A DNA stretch of 64,000 bases from Colwellia psychrerythraea 34H (GTDB lineage: Bacteria > Pseudomonadota > Gammaproteobacteria > Enterobacterales > Alteromonadaceae), in contig NC_003910.7 of the NCBI RefSeq assembly GCF_000012325.1, positions 3,534,001-3,598,000 on the forward strand. The letters are read 5' to 3'. How positions within the stretch are numbered: the first letter of the stretch is position 1; each line of letters starts with the position of its first letter. A model generated the notes under the pieces. It had not been told where the DNA came from and searched no databases. It saw nothing but the letters and a program-made list of their open reading frames with translations. Made by a program: the position numbers and the translations under genes. This document shows, in pieces, positions 1-5,815 of the stretch.

Positions 1-318
1 GTGCCGGTATTTTTAATTAGCTTACGCGCTGGTGGTGTAGGTTTGAACTTAACAGCAGCCGATACGGTTATTCATTTTGATCCTTGGTGGAACCCAGCAG
101 TAGAAAACCAAGCCACTGATAGAGCTTATCGAATTGGACAAAACAAACCTGTGTTTGTTTACAAATTGATTATTGAAAACTCTATAGAAGAAAAGATTCA
201 AAAAATTCAGCAAAACAAAGCCGAACTCGCCAAAGCCTTGCTATCTGAAGAAGTCAGTGATAATAAGCTGAGTTTAACTGACGATATCTTGGACTCGCTA
301 CTTACACCACTGAGCTAG
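1..318 (+). CDS. SNF2-family DEAD/DEAH helicase, C-terminal end (partial)
   Basis: This is the last ~105 residues of a Swi2/Snf2-type ATPase whose 5' part lies outside the window. Helicase motif V ([12 protein letters not shown]) and motif VI ([11 protein letters not shown], with the arginine finger) are followed by the usual C-terminal brace reading [12 protein letters not shown]. The reading frame is open from base 1, so the GTG there is not the real start. Bacterial SNF2 proteins are dsDNA translocases that remodel protein-DNA complexes; the target here cannot be read. It converges on the buf operon, with a hairpin terminator in between. Confidence 0.9.
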
Positions 319-349
319 AGACGAGCTAGAACTAAGTGAGTAGAAACAT

Positions 350-378
350 AAAGACCGATACAATTAGTATCGGTCTTT
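350..378. terminator. Bidirectional intrinsic terminator
   Basis: An 11-bp perfect stem (AAAGACCGATA / TATCGGTCTTT) with a 7-nt loop lies between the converging helicase and bufC genes. The A/T ends of the arms give a U-run on either strand. Confidence 0.8.
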
Positions 379-394
379 ATCGATAACTTATACG

Positions 395-1198
395 TCACTG
401 CTGAAGAAATTCTTGTTTTATTAATATGCCATCATCTAGCCATCTTAGTAGATAATTTAAGGCCACTTGGCTAGCTTGCTCTTCACTCACTTCTTCGAGT
501 AAAAAGTCACATAAAGCGGTAAAACTCGCACCATTTAAAATCATAGTGATCAGGTTATATTCTTGCTGTGGCAAGGAACGAAATTGCGTTAGGCGATCAT
601 TATTTCGCCAAAGCAACCAATCACTATGCTGCGTTTTTGCTGGCTCAGGTGATTGCTCCTGTTTTAGCGCTTGCCAAGTTTCCACACTATTGTAATGAAA
701 GTGCGCCAGTTGAACACTTGGGTGAAAACGAAAAACTAAATCAGGCCAATGTTCAGGCGGCGTATTTGCGAGTAAGTCACGGGTAAATCGCTTTGCGTCA
801 GCCGCGTCAAATGCCACCATAAGTAAGCGTTCAAAATGGGCTAATTCGCTAATAATAGGATGATCTTTAAATGGCACGTTATTGGCTAAAAACAATGGTA
901 ATTTATCAGCGTAATATCTAAGCGAGGTATTATCAGACGGGTAAGCATTAATATAACCTAAGACCATTTGATCAAATAAATCATCACCAAGGAAAAAACC
1001 TAACATTTCATGGTCGTTTTCAATGGTTTCTTTCAGTCTTGCTTGGTAAGCGTTCTTGTATATATGAAGACGAACATCACGGGTAATACTGCCGTGGTCC
1101 TTAATCTGCTCCATAATATTAGTCGTGACCTTGGGGTCGTCATCGACTAAATAATCAATTAATTTTTGCTGTAATGATGCTAACGGTAATTTATCCAC
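395..1198 (-). CDS. bufC: BufC/HvfC-like DUF2063 partner protein
   Basis: A 267-aa protein with an N-terminal DUF2063 (HvfC/BufC) domain. In the family it acts as the recognition partner that presents the precursor peptide to the DUF692 iron oxidase. The N-terminal helical segment (SLQQKLIDYLVDD ... VRLHIYKNAYQARL) and the later LAHFERLL segment are typical. It starts directly after bufB ends (stop and start adjacent at 1198/1199), so the two are translationally linked. It is the last gene of the three-gene operon and ends before the 350-378 terminator. The family call is strong. The modification chemistry is inferred from the family, not visible here. Confidence 0.85.
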   Translation of the reverse strand: MDKLPLASLQQKLIDYLVDDDPKVTTNIMEQIKDHGSITRDVRLHIYKNAYQARLKETIENDHEMLGFFLGDDLFDQMVLGYINAYPSDNTSLRYYADKLPLFLANNVPFKDHPIISELAHFERLLMVAFDAADAKRFTRDLLANTPPEHWPDLVFRFHPSVQLAHFHYNSVETWQALKQEQSPEPAKTQHSDWLLWRNNDRLTQFRSLPQQEYNLITMILNGASFTALCDFLLEEVSEEQASQVALNYLLRWLDDGILIKQEFLQQ

Positions 1199-2140
1199 TT
1201 ACGTTACTACCTCCCGTTGCTTCACTCGCTCCAATTGACCTAAAGTATCGTAAGCAATGTTCCGTGCGGTTTCAACTTCAGCTAATAGCTCAGCCAGCGG
1301 CGGAATATTATCATCGCGTTCAATCATAGTGCTTACCCAACCAAACCTTTGTAATGCTTGTTTATATAGAGCCCAAACAGGATCAGCAACTGGGTGGTCA
1401 TGGGTATCAATAACGTAATTTCCGTAATCAGTATGACCCGCTAAATGAAATTGCTTGACCTTGTCTTTGTCGATACCTTCAAGATAATCTTGTGGGTCAA
1501 ATTCATGATTTCGTGCGCTGACATATATATTATTTATATCTAACAAAATGTTACAGCCTGAGCGACGAGCAACATTATTGAAAAAGTCCCATTCACTCAT
1601 TTCAGATTCTTTATAAGTAATGTAGCTAGATAGGTTTTCTAAAAGGATAGGACGGCCTAAAAAATTTTGAACTTGGTCAACACGATCGCAAACATGATTT
1701 AATGCTTCGTCGTTATACGGTAAAGGCAATAGGTCATGACTGTTCGTTTGATTAACGCCTGTCCAACAAAGATGGTCTGAAATCCATTGTGGCTGTAGTT
1801 CGTTTACCAGGACTTTTAACTGCCGTAAATACTGCATATTTAACGGATCAGTTGAACCAATAGACAACGAGACACCGTGCATCACCATAGGATAAAGCTC
1901 ACGGATTGCGTGTAAATAGTGTTTGGGTTTACCACCGTCTACCATAAAATTTTCAGAGACAACTTCAAACCAATCAATATTGGGTTTAGTTGCTAGCACA
2001 TCTTGAAAATGATCTGTTCTTAGTCCTAAACCAAAGCCGAGGAAATCATCAGGTGGAGCGATACCGTCAACAGCGCTAGAGAGTGAATACTCTCTAGCGC
2101 TAGCTTGATTTGTTATCAAGTTATGAACCAACAGTGCCAC
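1199..2140 (-). CDS. bufB: BufB-like DUF692 multinuclear iron oxidase (MNIO), TIM barrel
   Basis: A 313-aa DUF692 enzyme, the MbnB-like family that uses a di-/tri-iron centre to convert cysteines of a precursor peptide into thiooxazole or oxazolone/thioamide groups. Expected metal-site segments are present in order: DHLCW, LLENLSSYI, LLDINNIYVSA, HLAGH, DTHDHPV and IERDDN. The assigned start is a GTG overlapping the end of bufA2 by 20 nt. The ribosome site is weak and no ATG is available upstream of the conserved FGLGLRTDHF segment, so the exact start is uncertain (in-frame TTG codons lie slightly downstream). A perfect stem-loop (2072-2101) lies inside its first ~25 codons and may keep enzyme output below precursor output. 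Confidence 0.88.
   Translation of the reverse strand: MALLVHNLITNQASAREYSLSSAVDGIAPPDDFLGFGLGLRTDHFQDVLATKPNIDWFEVVSENFMVDGGKPKHYLHAIRELYPMVMHGVSLSIGSTDPLNMQYLRQLKVLVNELQPQWISDHLCWTGVNQTNSHDLLPLPYNDEALNHVCDRVDQVQNFLGRPILLENLSSYITYKESEMSEWDFFNNVARRSGCNILLDINNIYVSARNHEFDPQDYLEGIDKDKVKQFHLAGHTDYGNYVIDTHDHPVADPVWALYKQALQRFGWVSTMIERDDNIPPLAELLAEVETARNIAYDTLGQLERVKQREVVT
2072..2101 (-). promoter_or_regulatory. Perfect 13-bp stem-loop at the bufA2/bufB boundary
   Basis: The arms AGCGCTAGAGAGT and ACTCTCTAGCGCT pair perfectly around a 4-nt loop. It lies 20 nt downstream of the bufA2 stop, within the 5' coding part of bufB. No U-run follows on the minus strand, so it is not a classical terminator. 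A role in mRNA stability or in translational damping of bufB is inferred. Confidence 0.6.
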
Positions 2141-2594
2141 CTACATCATCACAAGTTTGTGCTGGTAACGCGACAAAACCATGGCCTTTACATGCGGCTT
2201 GACCTTTACACGCATTTTCAGCAGTTTTACAGTCGTTATGACCATTACATTTATTGACGCCGTAACAATGAGTCAACTCAGCAGTATCAACTACGCCACG
2301 CCAATCGTCTTGTACATTACCGCCAATGTCGTCACAGGTTTTAGTCGACATAGCAACAAAACCATGGCCTTTACAAACCGCTTGTCCCTTACAGGCATTT
2401 TCAGCCGTTTTACAGTCGTTATGACCATTACATTTATTCACGCCGTAACAATGCGCCATTTCAACCGTATTGGTTGCGCTAGTTTTAGCTGTTTTAGTAC
2501 TTGAGTCGCCTGCAACTGCAGTACATCCCATTAAACCAGCAACGGCTAGTGCTACCGCGGTACCTTGAAGTTTTGTTTTAGTGCTCTGATTCAT
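2121..2594 (-). CDS. bufA2: BufA2-type bufferin precursor with duplicated Cys-rich core
   Basis: A 157-aa exported precursor peptide. Residues 1-29 form a signal peptide with a possible lipobox (LMGC, Cys24), although Met at -2 is unusual. Two near-identical modules follow, each with six cysteines: C49, C55, C61, C68, C74, C87 and C110, C116, C122, C129, C135, C148. The period is 61 residues. Residues 48-81 and 109-142 differ at one position. Each module reads HCYGVNKCNGHNDC, then ENACKGQ, then CKGHGFVA, the BufA2 signature. Family members normally carry one such module and are thought to sequester copper after cysteine modification. A good ribosome site (GGGAG, 6 nt from ATG) sets the start. 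It is the first gene of bufA2-bufB-bufC. Metal specificity here is inferred. Confidence 0.87.
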   Translation of the reverse strand: MNQSTKTKLQGTAVALAVAGLMGCTAVAGDSSTKTAKTSATNTVEMAHCYGVNKCNGHNDCKTAENACKGQAVCKGHGFVAMSTKTCDDIGGNVQDDWRGVVDTAELTHCYGVNKCNGHNDCKTAENACKGQAACKGHGFVALPAQTCDDVGGTVGS

Positions 2595-3188
2595 TGTATT
2601 CTCCCATTAGTTTTTAGTTATAGATCAGGCCACATTTTGCTTTAAGCTAAGTTACATATGAATCATGTTCAGTTTAAATAAAAATATTGCCTACAGCACC
2701 TTTAATCTTAGTTCAAGATCATCATTTTCTTAAAATAATTATGACCAATTATAAAAGTAACCACCTAATTTGACCTGTTAATGTCTTTATAACTTTCAAT
2801 TTTTATCTGAATAATTATTTTATATTTTTTGAAATTTTAATGAGATTGTCCCGTTCGACCGGTAAAATAAATTGATTGAAAAAGGTGTTTGATGACCTTA
2901 TAAACGAGGACATTTTAATATCGTGAAGTGAGTATTAGGAAATATTCACAGAGCTAACAAATGAGGGAAACTATAACTTAATGCACTGATTGATAATAAC
3001 TTATCTAATAAAAACAAAACTAGAGTCATTATGAAAATCCATTATATTCAAGATCAATGTAGTTAACTCAAGATCTTAACGTAAATGTTATGTTCGAGGT
3101 CACTATCAAAGTTCCATTACTTTTTAGGAACTGGCCCTCCGATTAAACATTACGGGGATAACGTCCATAAGCTAGGTACTTAGATACG
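2595..3188. other. Intergenic region upstream of the buf operon
   Basis: These 594 A/T-rich bases lie upstream of bufA2 and downstream of the antiporter stop. They must carry the buf promoter. I found no convincing sigma-70 pair, ECF-type promoter, tRNA or ORF. Confidence 0.5.
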
Positions 3189-4400
3189 TTAAATGTTGAG
3201 TTTTTTAACTAACAGTGGAGTTGTTGTTGCTTGAACAATGAGAGTGAAAAGTACAATGCCAAAGCCAATAGATTGAATAGTCCACCAATAGGGTAACTCG
3301 GTTGGCAATGACAAAACTAATGCAATGGTGACCGCTCCGCGTAATCCCCCCCAGATCATGATGGGTGGATATTTACGGTTAATAGGCTGTCCCACAATGA
3401 CCTGATTTAACCATACTGAACAATAGACTGCGATGACTCGCGCAATAAAAGCCCCCACTATTGCTAATATTATGGCTAGCCACATTTGAGTAAACATATT
3501 AAGACTGACCACTAATCCCAACAAGACAAAAACAAAAATATTGGCAATGAAACCAAGTGACTCCCATATATTGTGCAAACCGGTGTGAACATCCTTTAGC
3601 TGATCCTGTGCTGATTTTTTAAAAAGTAATGCAGCAAACATAACTGCCACAATACCTGAGACATGAAATAAGTGCTCCGCGATGTAAAAGGTCCCATAAG
3701 CTAGAAACAGTGTAATAACCACCATATGTGGCACAGATGTATCAATTATTTTAACTAACAGTGCTGCAATATATCCAAATACACTACCCACAATAATGCC
3801 GCCAAAAAATACTTTGCTAAACGTGATAATGGCAGACGTCAAGTCTGGCTCACTTTGACCTAAAGCAATGCTGAGAATAATACTAAATAAAACAATCGCC
3901 GTTGCATCATTAAATAAGCTCTCCCCTTCAATTAACACGTTTAAATCATCAGGCGCTTTCAACGCTTTCAATTGACCAACCACAGCAACCGGGTCCGTTG
4001 CTGATATAACAACACCCGTTAATAATGCCGCGATGAAAGGAAAACCTGAATGAGCGATACCAAAATAAAGGAAAACAGCGATAACAAGCGTAGAAATGAT
4101 CAAACCAAGCGTCGCAAGCGTTAGTACGTTGGGTAAATATTTGAATAAGAGTTTACTGTTCAAAGCAAAAGCCGCTTCAAATATTAATACTGGCAGCAAT
4201 ATAAATAACATCAAATCCTGAAAATTACTCGCTCTCACGCCGGTATCTATGCCAAATGCTACCGTGAACAAGGACAGAAAAAACCCGAGTACAACTAATA
4301 ATAAGGTGTAGGGTATGCGTATAAAACGAGCGAGAATAATGGCAAACACGCCAACAGCTAAAATAAGCAAGGTAATAGAAACAATCATATGAATATTCAT
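3189..4400 (-). CDS. Na+(K+)/H+ antiporter, CPA1/NhaP type
   Basis: A 403-aa inner-membrane protein with about 12 hydrophobic segments and no long cytoplasmic tail. CPA1 hallmarks are SATDPVAVV (133-141), the FNDA segment (163-166, with the transport Asp) and GGLRGAVTIAL near the C-terminus. It exchanges external protons for internal Na+ or K+ in pH and salt homeostasis. The shortness suggests the NhaP-type core without RCK or other regulatory domains. It is transcribed alone. Ion preference cannot be read from sequence. Confidence 0.88.
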   Translation of the reverse strand: MNIHMIVSITLLILAVGVFAIILARFIRIPYTLLLVVLGFFLSLFTVAFGIDTGVRASNFQDLMLFILLPVLIFEAAFALNSKLLFKYLPNVLTLATLGLIISTLVIAVFLYFGIAHSGFPFIAALLTGVVISATDPVAVVGQLKALKAPDDLNVLIEGESLFNDATAIVLFSIILSIALGQSEPDLTSAIITFSKVFFGGIIVGSVFGYIAALLVKIIDTSVPHMVVITLFLAYGTFYIAEHLFHVSGIVAVMFAALLFKKSAQDQLKDVHTGLHNIWESLGFIANIFVFVLLGLVVSLNMFTQMWLAIILAIVGAFIARVIAVYCSVWLNQVIVGQPINRKYPPIMIWGGLRGAVTIALVLSLPTELPYWWTIQSIGFGIVLFTLIVQATTTPLLVKKLNI

Positions 4401-4531
4401 AGCTTATTATCCCCTTCTTGATTATTACCAAGTGGTTCGATTCTTTATGAGGTATAGCTAAGCTTAGTCGATATAGGAAAATACATCGATTGAGGAGTAG
4501 GTGTTGAGTGTTTTTTGAATTTTTTTAAGTA

Positions 4532-4560
4532 TAAAAAAAGCTTCAATAGTATTGAAGCTT
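4532..4560 (-). terminator. Intrinsic terminator after the isochorismatase-fold gene
   Basis: A 10-bp stem (AAGCTTCAAT / ATTGAAGCTT) with a 3-nt loop. On the minus strand it is followed by a run of seven U, about 45 nt after the stop at 4606. Confidence 0.85.
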
Positions 4561-4605
4561 GGGGAGTCAGTGTTTTAATCGATATATAACTAGGCGTTCA
4601 TATCA

Positions 4606-5157
4606 CTACTTAATTAAGACAAGTATTTCTTTAAATACAGGGGTTCGACAGTCTTTAACCAGTTCAAATAAACACATTTCCAATCCCGTTAACTCAACGC
4701 CATTGTTAACAAGTTTGTTTATGGCTAAATTTTTATTATCGAGCTCACGAGAAGAAACACAGTCTGAAACGATTTGTACTTCATATCCCATACGTTTTAA
4801 ACTGATCGCGGTTTGATACACACAAATATGTGCTTCAATACCACAAACAATCCATGTATCAACGTTAGTGGCTTTAACTGCTTCAATAAATTGAGCGTTT
4901 TCACAACCATCAAAGGTATATTTTATAATGGGCTCTTGATGACCAGTAGGAGAACTAAGTAGCGAACTCAATTCATCAACTGTTGGGCCAATTTTTTCTG
5001 GGTTTTGTTCAAGCCATAAAATCGGTAAATCAAGGGCTTGGACCCCTTTGATGAGCTTTTCACAATTTGACACAAGCGCATCACTATCATGAACTAAACG
5101 CGTTAATTTCCCTTGTATGTCGACAACAATCAGACCGGTACTTTCTTTTTTTAACAT
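4606..5157 (-). CDS. Isochorismatase-fold cysteine hydrolase
   Basis: A 183-aa cytoplasmic hydrolase of the isochorismatase-like superfamily. The catalytic triad is visible as Asp13 (VVDIQ), Lys79 and Cys112 (CGIEAHICV). The short length and the IVCGIEAHICV segment resemble YcaC-like hydrolases of unknown substrate rather than true isochorismatase. No siderophore genes are adjacent. It is single-cistron with its own terminator. The physiological substrate is unknown. Confidence 0.82.
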   Translation of the reverse strand: MLKKESTGLIVVDIQGKLTRLVHDSDALVSNCEKLIKGVQALDLPILWLEQNPEKIGPTVDELSSLLSSPTGHQEPIIKYTFDGCENAQFIEAVKATNVDTWIVCGIEAHICVYQTAISLKRMGYEVQIVSDCVSSRELDNKNLAINKLVNNGVELTGLEMCLFELVKDCRTPVFKEILVLIK

Positions 5158-5317
5158 AATTAGCTCCTTGGGTTATCACTTATAATGTCCCTTTAGACGG
5201 ACAAATACTCGTTATTATTTGTAAAGATACATAAATAAAACGAATATATGTTTGCTTTCATGACCTTATTGGCAACCTTTATTTCCTTGCAGAAAAACTC
5301 TAAGTTGCCCGTGTTCC

Positions 5318-5815
5318 CTATTTCTTAGGTGCCATAGTATCTGGCATCAATACTGCGATAACTTGTCCTTTTGAGCAAATAACACCAGCAGCCGATAAGG
5401 TTATATCAACGACAATTTTACGGTCTTTAACTTGACTAAAACGACCAATTAATTCCAACTCAACGCCCTGTGGTGTTGGTGCTAAGAAACTAACATTCAA
5501 CGCACCAGTGACAAATCGTAATGTAGGTGAACTACCCATTTCACGATTTTGTGCAAGGTAAGCCATAGCTGAGGCACTGCCAGTACCATGACAATCAATC
5601 AATGAGGCTGTCATGCCACCATAAACAAAACCAGGAATAGCGGTGAAAATATCAGACGGAGTAAAACGAGCAATAGTTACGCTAGCTAACAAATCATTCT
5701 TATCAATATGCTGCCAGTAACTTTTTAATTGGTGACCGTCTTGGTTGTTTTTACCACAACCATAACAATGGCTTAATTCTTCAGGGTAACAATCTTGGAA
5801 AGCTTGTTCGTTCAT
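5318..5815 (-). CDS. PaaI-family hot-dog acyl-CoA thioesterase
   Basis: A 165-aa single hot-dog domain. The N-terminal HCYGCGKNN motif and the central YGGMTASLIDCHGTGSA segment are typical of PaaI/4HBT-like thioesterases, which hydrolyse aryl- or acyl-CoA esters. It lies downstream of a PaaK-like CoA ligase in the same orientation (136-nt gap) and could clear dead-end CoA thioesters made by that pathway. The start has an AAGGA ribosome site. Substrate is inferred from context only. Confidence 0.82.
   Translation of the reverse strand: MNEQAFQDCYPEELSHCYGCGKNNQDGHQLKSYWQHIDKNDLLASVTIARFTPSDIFTAIPGFVYGGMTASLIDCHGTGSASAMAYLAQNREMGSSPTLRFVTGALNVSFLAPTPQGVELELIGRFSQVKDRKIVVDITLSAAGVICSKGQVIAVLMPDTMAPKK

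Follow-up and report, generated by a model that had tools for sequence, protein, structure and literature searches.

A two-module BufA2 precursor gene and its bufB and bufC partners in Colwellia psychrerythraea 34H

Within the 64,000-nucleotide stretch of the Colwellia psychrerythraea 34H genome analyzed here (the window), a bufA2-bufB-bufC cluster encodes a precursor with two six-cysteine modules repeated at a period of 61 residues, and the duplication that gave rise to them took place before Colwellia and Cognaticolwellia separated (Table 1). We assign the cluster with good confidence to the 12-Cys BufA2 (Buf2) bufferin operons, in which case its product would be modified, exported, probably lipidated and would serve in copper buffering. 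This is a known kind of protein. The original prediction was right in its observation of the repeat and in its choice of family, while its descriptions of the duplication as recent and of the lipobox as unusual were not upheld.

Table 1. Features of the bufA2-bufB-bufC cluster (positions are those of the window)
Feature	Positions	Strand	Basis
bufC, DUF2063-domain partner	395..1198	-	PF09836 above cut-off
bufB, MNIO (DUF692) maturase	1199..2140	-	NF050167
bufA2 precursor, putative lipobox at Cys24, two six-Cys modules	2121..2594	-	ORF, profile match, Cys map
Module 1 core, residues 48-81	2352..2453	-	coordinates from residue numbers
Module 2 core, residues 109-142, 33/34 identical to module 1	2169..2270	-	coordinates from residue numbers
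RNA hairpin directly 3' of bufA2, within the bufB frame	2072..2101	-	folding + covariation

The precursor, its partner genes and their proposed function

The bufA2 frame is uninterrupted from its ATG start and encodes 157 amino acids, including 13 cysteines: residue 24 plus six in each module, located at positions 49, 55, 61, 68, 74 and 87 in module 1 and at 110, 116, 122, 129, 135 and 148 in module 2. These positions bore out the predicted six-Cys modules with their 61-residue period, and the near-identity of the two cores was confirmed as well, V73 versus A134 being the sole mismatch. At the DNA level, the repeat covers 157 nt at 80% identity with a spacing of 183 nt. The NCBIfam BufA2 equivalog model matched the precursor in two separate stretches (142 bits, cut-off 60, E 5e-42) and, taken together with the DNA repeat, this ruled out a chance repeat. 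Both modules contain the six cysteines per core domain that characterize Buf2, and the precursor as a whole shows the duplicated 6-Cys domains of the 12-Cys Buf2 subtype.

The N-terminus of BufA2 is hydrophobic and signal-like, in agreement with the export signal originally proposed, and ends in LMGC (Cys24) followed by a spacer. The putative lipobox at Cys24 was called with a PS00013-like pattern. The AlphaFold model was weak (mean pLDDT 66.5, pTM 0.54); at this low confidence, a strand-strand-helix order was repeated in both modules. As a solved structural relative by sequence, only Fibulin-4 was retrieved, and this lone match was unconvincing (E 0.63).

The partner genes were also as predicted. 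BufB, the BufB-type MNIO adjoining bufA2, reached 398.2 bits against NF050167 (cut-off 310), and the product of bufC 55.7 bits against PF09836 (DUF2063, PME-type 1; cut-off 27.2), the latter missing the HvfC equivalog cut-off (47.7 versus 142 bits). The longest bufB frame opens with a GTG at 2140, overlapping bufA2, with TTG codons at 2131 or 2119 as alternative starts. Of the 53 distinct locus proteins, 51 had bufB encoded downstream. The two exceptions, from Shewanella (L051) and Parashewanella (L055), are two-module BufA2 genes for which no bufB or bufC was found within the fetched flanks; in L055, one cysteine of module 1 is replaced by Ser.

Most likely, BufA2 acts in the periplasm as a copper buffer with two sites and a membrane anchor, the chemistry and the anchoring both being predicted. 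Cysteine modification to thiooxazoles, copper binding and protection would follow by analogy with published work on Buf1 and preliminary statements on Buf2 (PMC12452194), and the lipidation and cell location are predicted from the sequence. The precursor would be synthesized in the cytoplasm and its inner cysteines oxidized by BufB together with the DUF2063 partner, probably to thiooxazoles. Export would proceed through Sec. The matured protein would probably receive a lipid at Cys24 and stay at the outer membrane (the residue after Cys24 is Thr, not Asp), where both modules would bind copper and buffer excess metal, possibly with the higher capacity or avidity originally suggested. The weak structural model, the HvfC score, the lack of a DoxX gene in the cluster and the patchy occurrence of the gene in the genus weigh against this reading.

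The chief targets of BufB would be the Cys-Lys sites, namely C61, C68 and C74 in module 1 and C122, C129 and C135 in module 2. PMC13097082 assigns BufA2 to a Cys-Lys class and reports that the MNIOs of this class have Asp at a site in contact with the substrate. At the presumed equivalent, matched by eye, the window BufB reads ERDD, versus EWDT and EWDN in the two Buf1-linked MNIOs of the same genome. Among the 118 two-module proteins in the best 120 of 1709 homologues, Lys came directly after the third and the fifth cysteine of both modules in 109-114 cases, but after Cys 4 in only 53 (module 1) and 51 (module 2), and hence C68 and C129 are weaker candidate targets. A link between the ERD[D/G/A] site of BufB and Lys after Cys 4 was sought by eye, gave no clean pattern and was dropped.

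Relation to published bufferins and distribution

Both the two-module and the lipobox traits of BufA2 are already published, and neither is new. According to Antoine et al. 2025 (PMC12452194), six conserved cysteines are present in 90% of Buf2 precursors and 12 in the remaining ~10%, a 12-Cys Buf2 was modelled as duplicated 6-Cys domains, and lipoprotein signal peptides occur in ~16% of Buf2. Figure 3h of that paper presents two Buf2 models, of which WP_077285100 of Cognaticolwellia aestuarii is, in our reading of the legend, the 12-Cys one. The original view that a lipobox would be unusual is at odds with this published share and with the PS00013-like pattern, which was present in 22 of 38 two-module locus proteins and in 98 of the 118 two-module homologues (best 120 of 1709).

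Like the window precursor, the 12-Cys Buf2 of PMC12452194 have duplicated 6-Cys domains and are accompanied by an MNIO and a DUF2063 protein. They are exported by Sec, as predicted for the window BufA2, some of them carry lipoprotein signals, and no material difference from them was found. The two-module protein of C. aestuarii (L047) is 82% identical to the window BufA2. Directly upstream of its bufA2 lies a DoxX gene (PF07681, 71.2 bits; 4353-4955 on the plus strand of that locus), whereas the window's bufA2-bufB-bufC cluster contains none. The 6-Cys Buf2, exemplified by Pseudomonas (L061-L063), have the core and gene order of the window but one module rather than two. Buf1 (DUF2282) systems involve similar kinds of partners, yet Buf1 has four conserved cysteines (PMC12452194, available part). 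The EGKCG-repeat metallophores oxazolin and fontiphorin likewise carry multiple modified cysteines and have an MNIO and a PME1 partner, but their units are Lys-Cys 5-mers, in contrast with the Cys-Lys six-Cys modules of the window precursor (PMC13097082).

In the host's order, BufA2 matches above cut-off were obtained in 30 of 394 genomes searched, 25 of which had two matches within one frame (table count). Two modules are the published minority of ~10% in Buf2 at large (PMC12452194) but the majority among the above-cut-off genomes of this order, so that the refuting condition set in the original prediction, two modules being the normal BufA2 architecture, was borne out in part. Within the genus, the gene was patchily distributed, being present in five of 37 genomes, one of them that of the window; Colwellia demingiae and C. 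psychrerythraea were among the close relatives. Two intact modules were encoded by 15 of the 25 loci in named genomes and by 38 of the 53 distinct locus proteins, L055, counted as single-module, being a degenerate two-module protein. They were also present in 118 of the best 120 of 1709 homologues, a figure that is not a frequency in nature because it describes the top of the list and because the length limits of the search disfavoured single-module proteins.

Single-module cores shared 20-30 of 34 residues with the window modules, so that high amino-acid identity is nothing special in this core; the low end, 20/34, comes from a Methylophaga protein (L058) whose register is shifted by an internal repeat. 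This BufA2 (approximately 4986-5324 of its locus) has extra internal CK-containing repeats within one module, and its expansion is by short motif, not by whole module.

Age of the duplication and agreement between modules

A single M1/M2 change sufficed on the module tree for 10 proteins from Colwellia and Cognaticolwellia, which places the duplication before the split of these genera. This set leaves out L036, whose code points to another genome of the same family and whose modules fell in a different part of the tree. In line with this, synonymous differences between the window and C. demingiae were 3/34 for M1-M1 and 2/34 for M2-M2, versus 9/33 both ways across modules. Within the window bufA2, M1 and M2 showed 8/33 synonymous differences. 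Codons drawn independently lead to an expectation of 15.3 (window usage) or 12.0 (bufA usage), and the probability of eight or fewer was 0.004 or 0.066, respectively. The modules are thus somewhat closer than saturation, leaving room for an old homogenization event.

Modules of the same protein also agreed with each other more than with shuffled partners. Across 20 representatives, they matched at a mean of 29.35 of 34 positions, compared to 26.5 (sd 0.32) when module 2 was shuffled; the observed agreement was reached in 0 of 5000 shuffles, and in 7 of 5000 with six representatives. Positions 54, 65, 69, 71 and 77 accounted for most of this co-variation.

It is quite possible, if not the favoured history, that an old duplication was followed by repeated homogenization of the modules through gene conversion, or that duplication occurred independently more than once. 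The excess agreement within proteins fits such a history, as do five M1/M2 changes on the two-module tree. Further, a single clade of all M1 was marginally rejected (p 0.048) and eight single-module rows stood beside Colwellia M2 rows in the module tree, which together argue against a plain single origin. However, this tree is based on 53 alignment columns, with 44 of 80 inner branches unresolved, and its few columns and weak forks count against the same history. So does the constant spacing of 61 residues, shared by all 118 two-module homologues (best 120 of 1709) and by all 38 locus proteins with two modules. In L027, 33 of 34 residues are identical between modules despite 23/33 synonymous differences, which favours selection or an old event. 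Homogenization, repeated duplication and co-selection are all compatible with the co-variation, which does not separate them.

As a tentative and rather doubtful proposal, the two modules may form one matched composite copper unit, with an RNA hairpin at the gene junction setting the output of BufB relative to the precursor. The composite part is suggested by the constant spacing, the conservation of D96, W98 and G100 in the linker, and the variation of the modules in step. If the modules do co-evolve, the 12-Cys class offers a test of whether the maturase reads the cores singly or as a unit.

That module 2 is structural or decaying and escapes modification is improbable. Tyr after Cys 1 was less well kept there than in module 1 (103 versus 118 of the 118 two-module homologues, best 120 of 1709), which would suit a relaxed module, but the Cys-Lys sites are kept equally in both. 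Moreover, in a 39-row alignment five cysteines of module 2 were invariant and C135 was present in at least 90%, beside six invariant cysteines in module 1.

An origin of the tandem modules by recent duplication within this lineage of Colwellia, the view first put forward, is highly improbable and was rejected for the genus: the 33/34 identical residues and the synonymous differences below saturation would speak for it, but the single separation of M1 from M2 in the 10 proteins, the smaller within-module than cross-module distances to close relatives, and the two-module records from Shewanella, Porticoccaceae and Methylococcaceae speak against it.

The bufA2-bufB junction and further bufferin loci of the genome

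In nine Colwellia and Cognaticolwellia sequences, 86.5% of the cells of the hairpin directly after bufA2 could pair, and 9 of its 14 pairs had changed on both sides among these relatives. The covariation score was 0.482, compared to 0.218 (sd 0.038) for shuffled and at most 0.190 for slid alignments; the number of further pair types in the hairpin was not above that of shuffles (196/500). More widely, folding of the 90 bases following bufA gave z values no higher than -2 at 43 of 51 distinct loci, versus 4 of 51 for control stretches 400 bases downstream. T-rich runs, irrespective of their position relative to the stem, were flagged in 24 of the 51 loci, and the signal outside Colwellia and Cognaticolwellia may therefore partly reflect ordinary terminators. 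The window hairpin itself was called as resembling a terminator on the plus strand alone, against the direction of the operon.

The hairpin may keep the precursor above the enzyme, and it suggests a simple route to more precursor than enzyme in these clusters. Neither module co-variation nor a bufA-bufB hairpin was found in the published bufferin passages available to us; there, the words hairpin and terminator are absent from PMC12452194 and PMC13097082, and stem-loop from PMC12452194. Other regulatory signals were not apparent: a promoter scan returned 8 sites versus 9.4 expected, no common copper-regulator box was seen in the alignment upstream of bufA2, and Rfam gave no match at the gathering threshold in window positions 300-3300.

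The genome contains another two MNIO loci, both of which adjoin a Buf1 (DUF2282) gene. The bufA2 cluster thus adds a cold-marine genome, which also carries two Buf1 systems, to the bacteria whose copper buffers have two modules and are probably lipidated. One of these Buf1 clusters (L070, 1694-4576 on the minus strand of that locus) comprises a DUF2282 precursor, an MNIO, DoxX and a probable DUF2063 partner, and upstream of it lie thioredoxin-like and YHS-like frames (partner and frames by eye).
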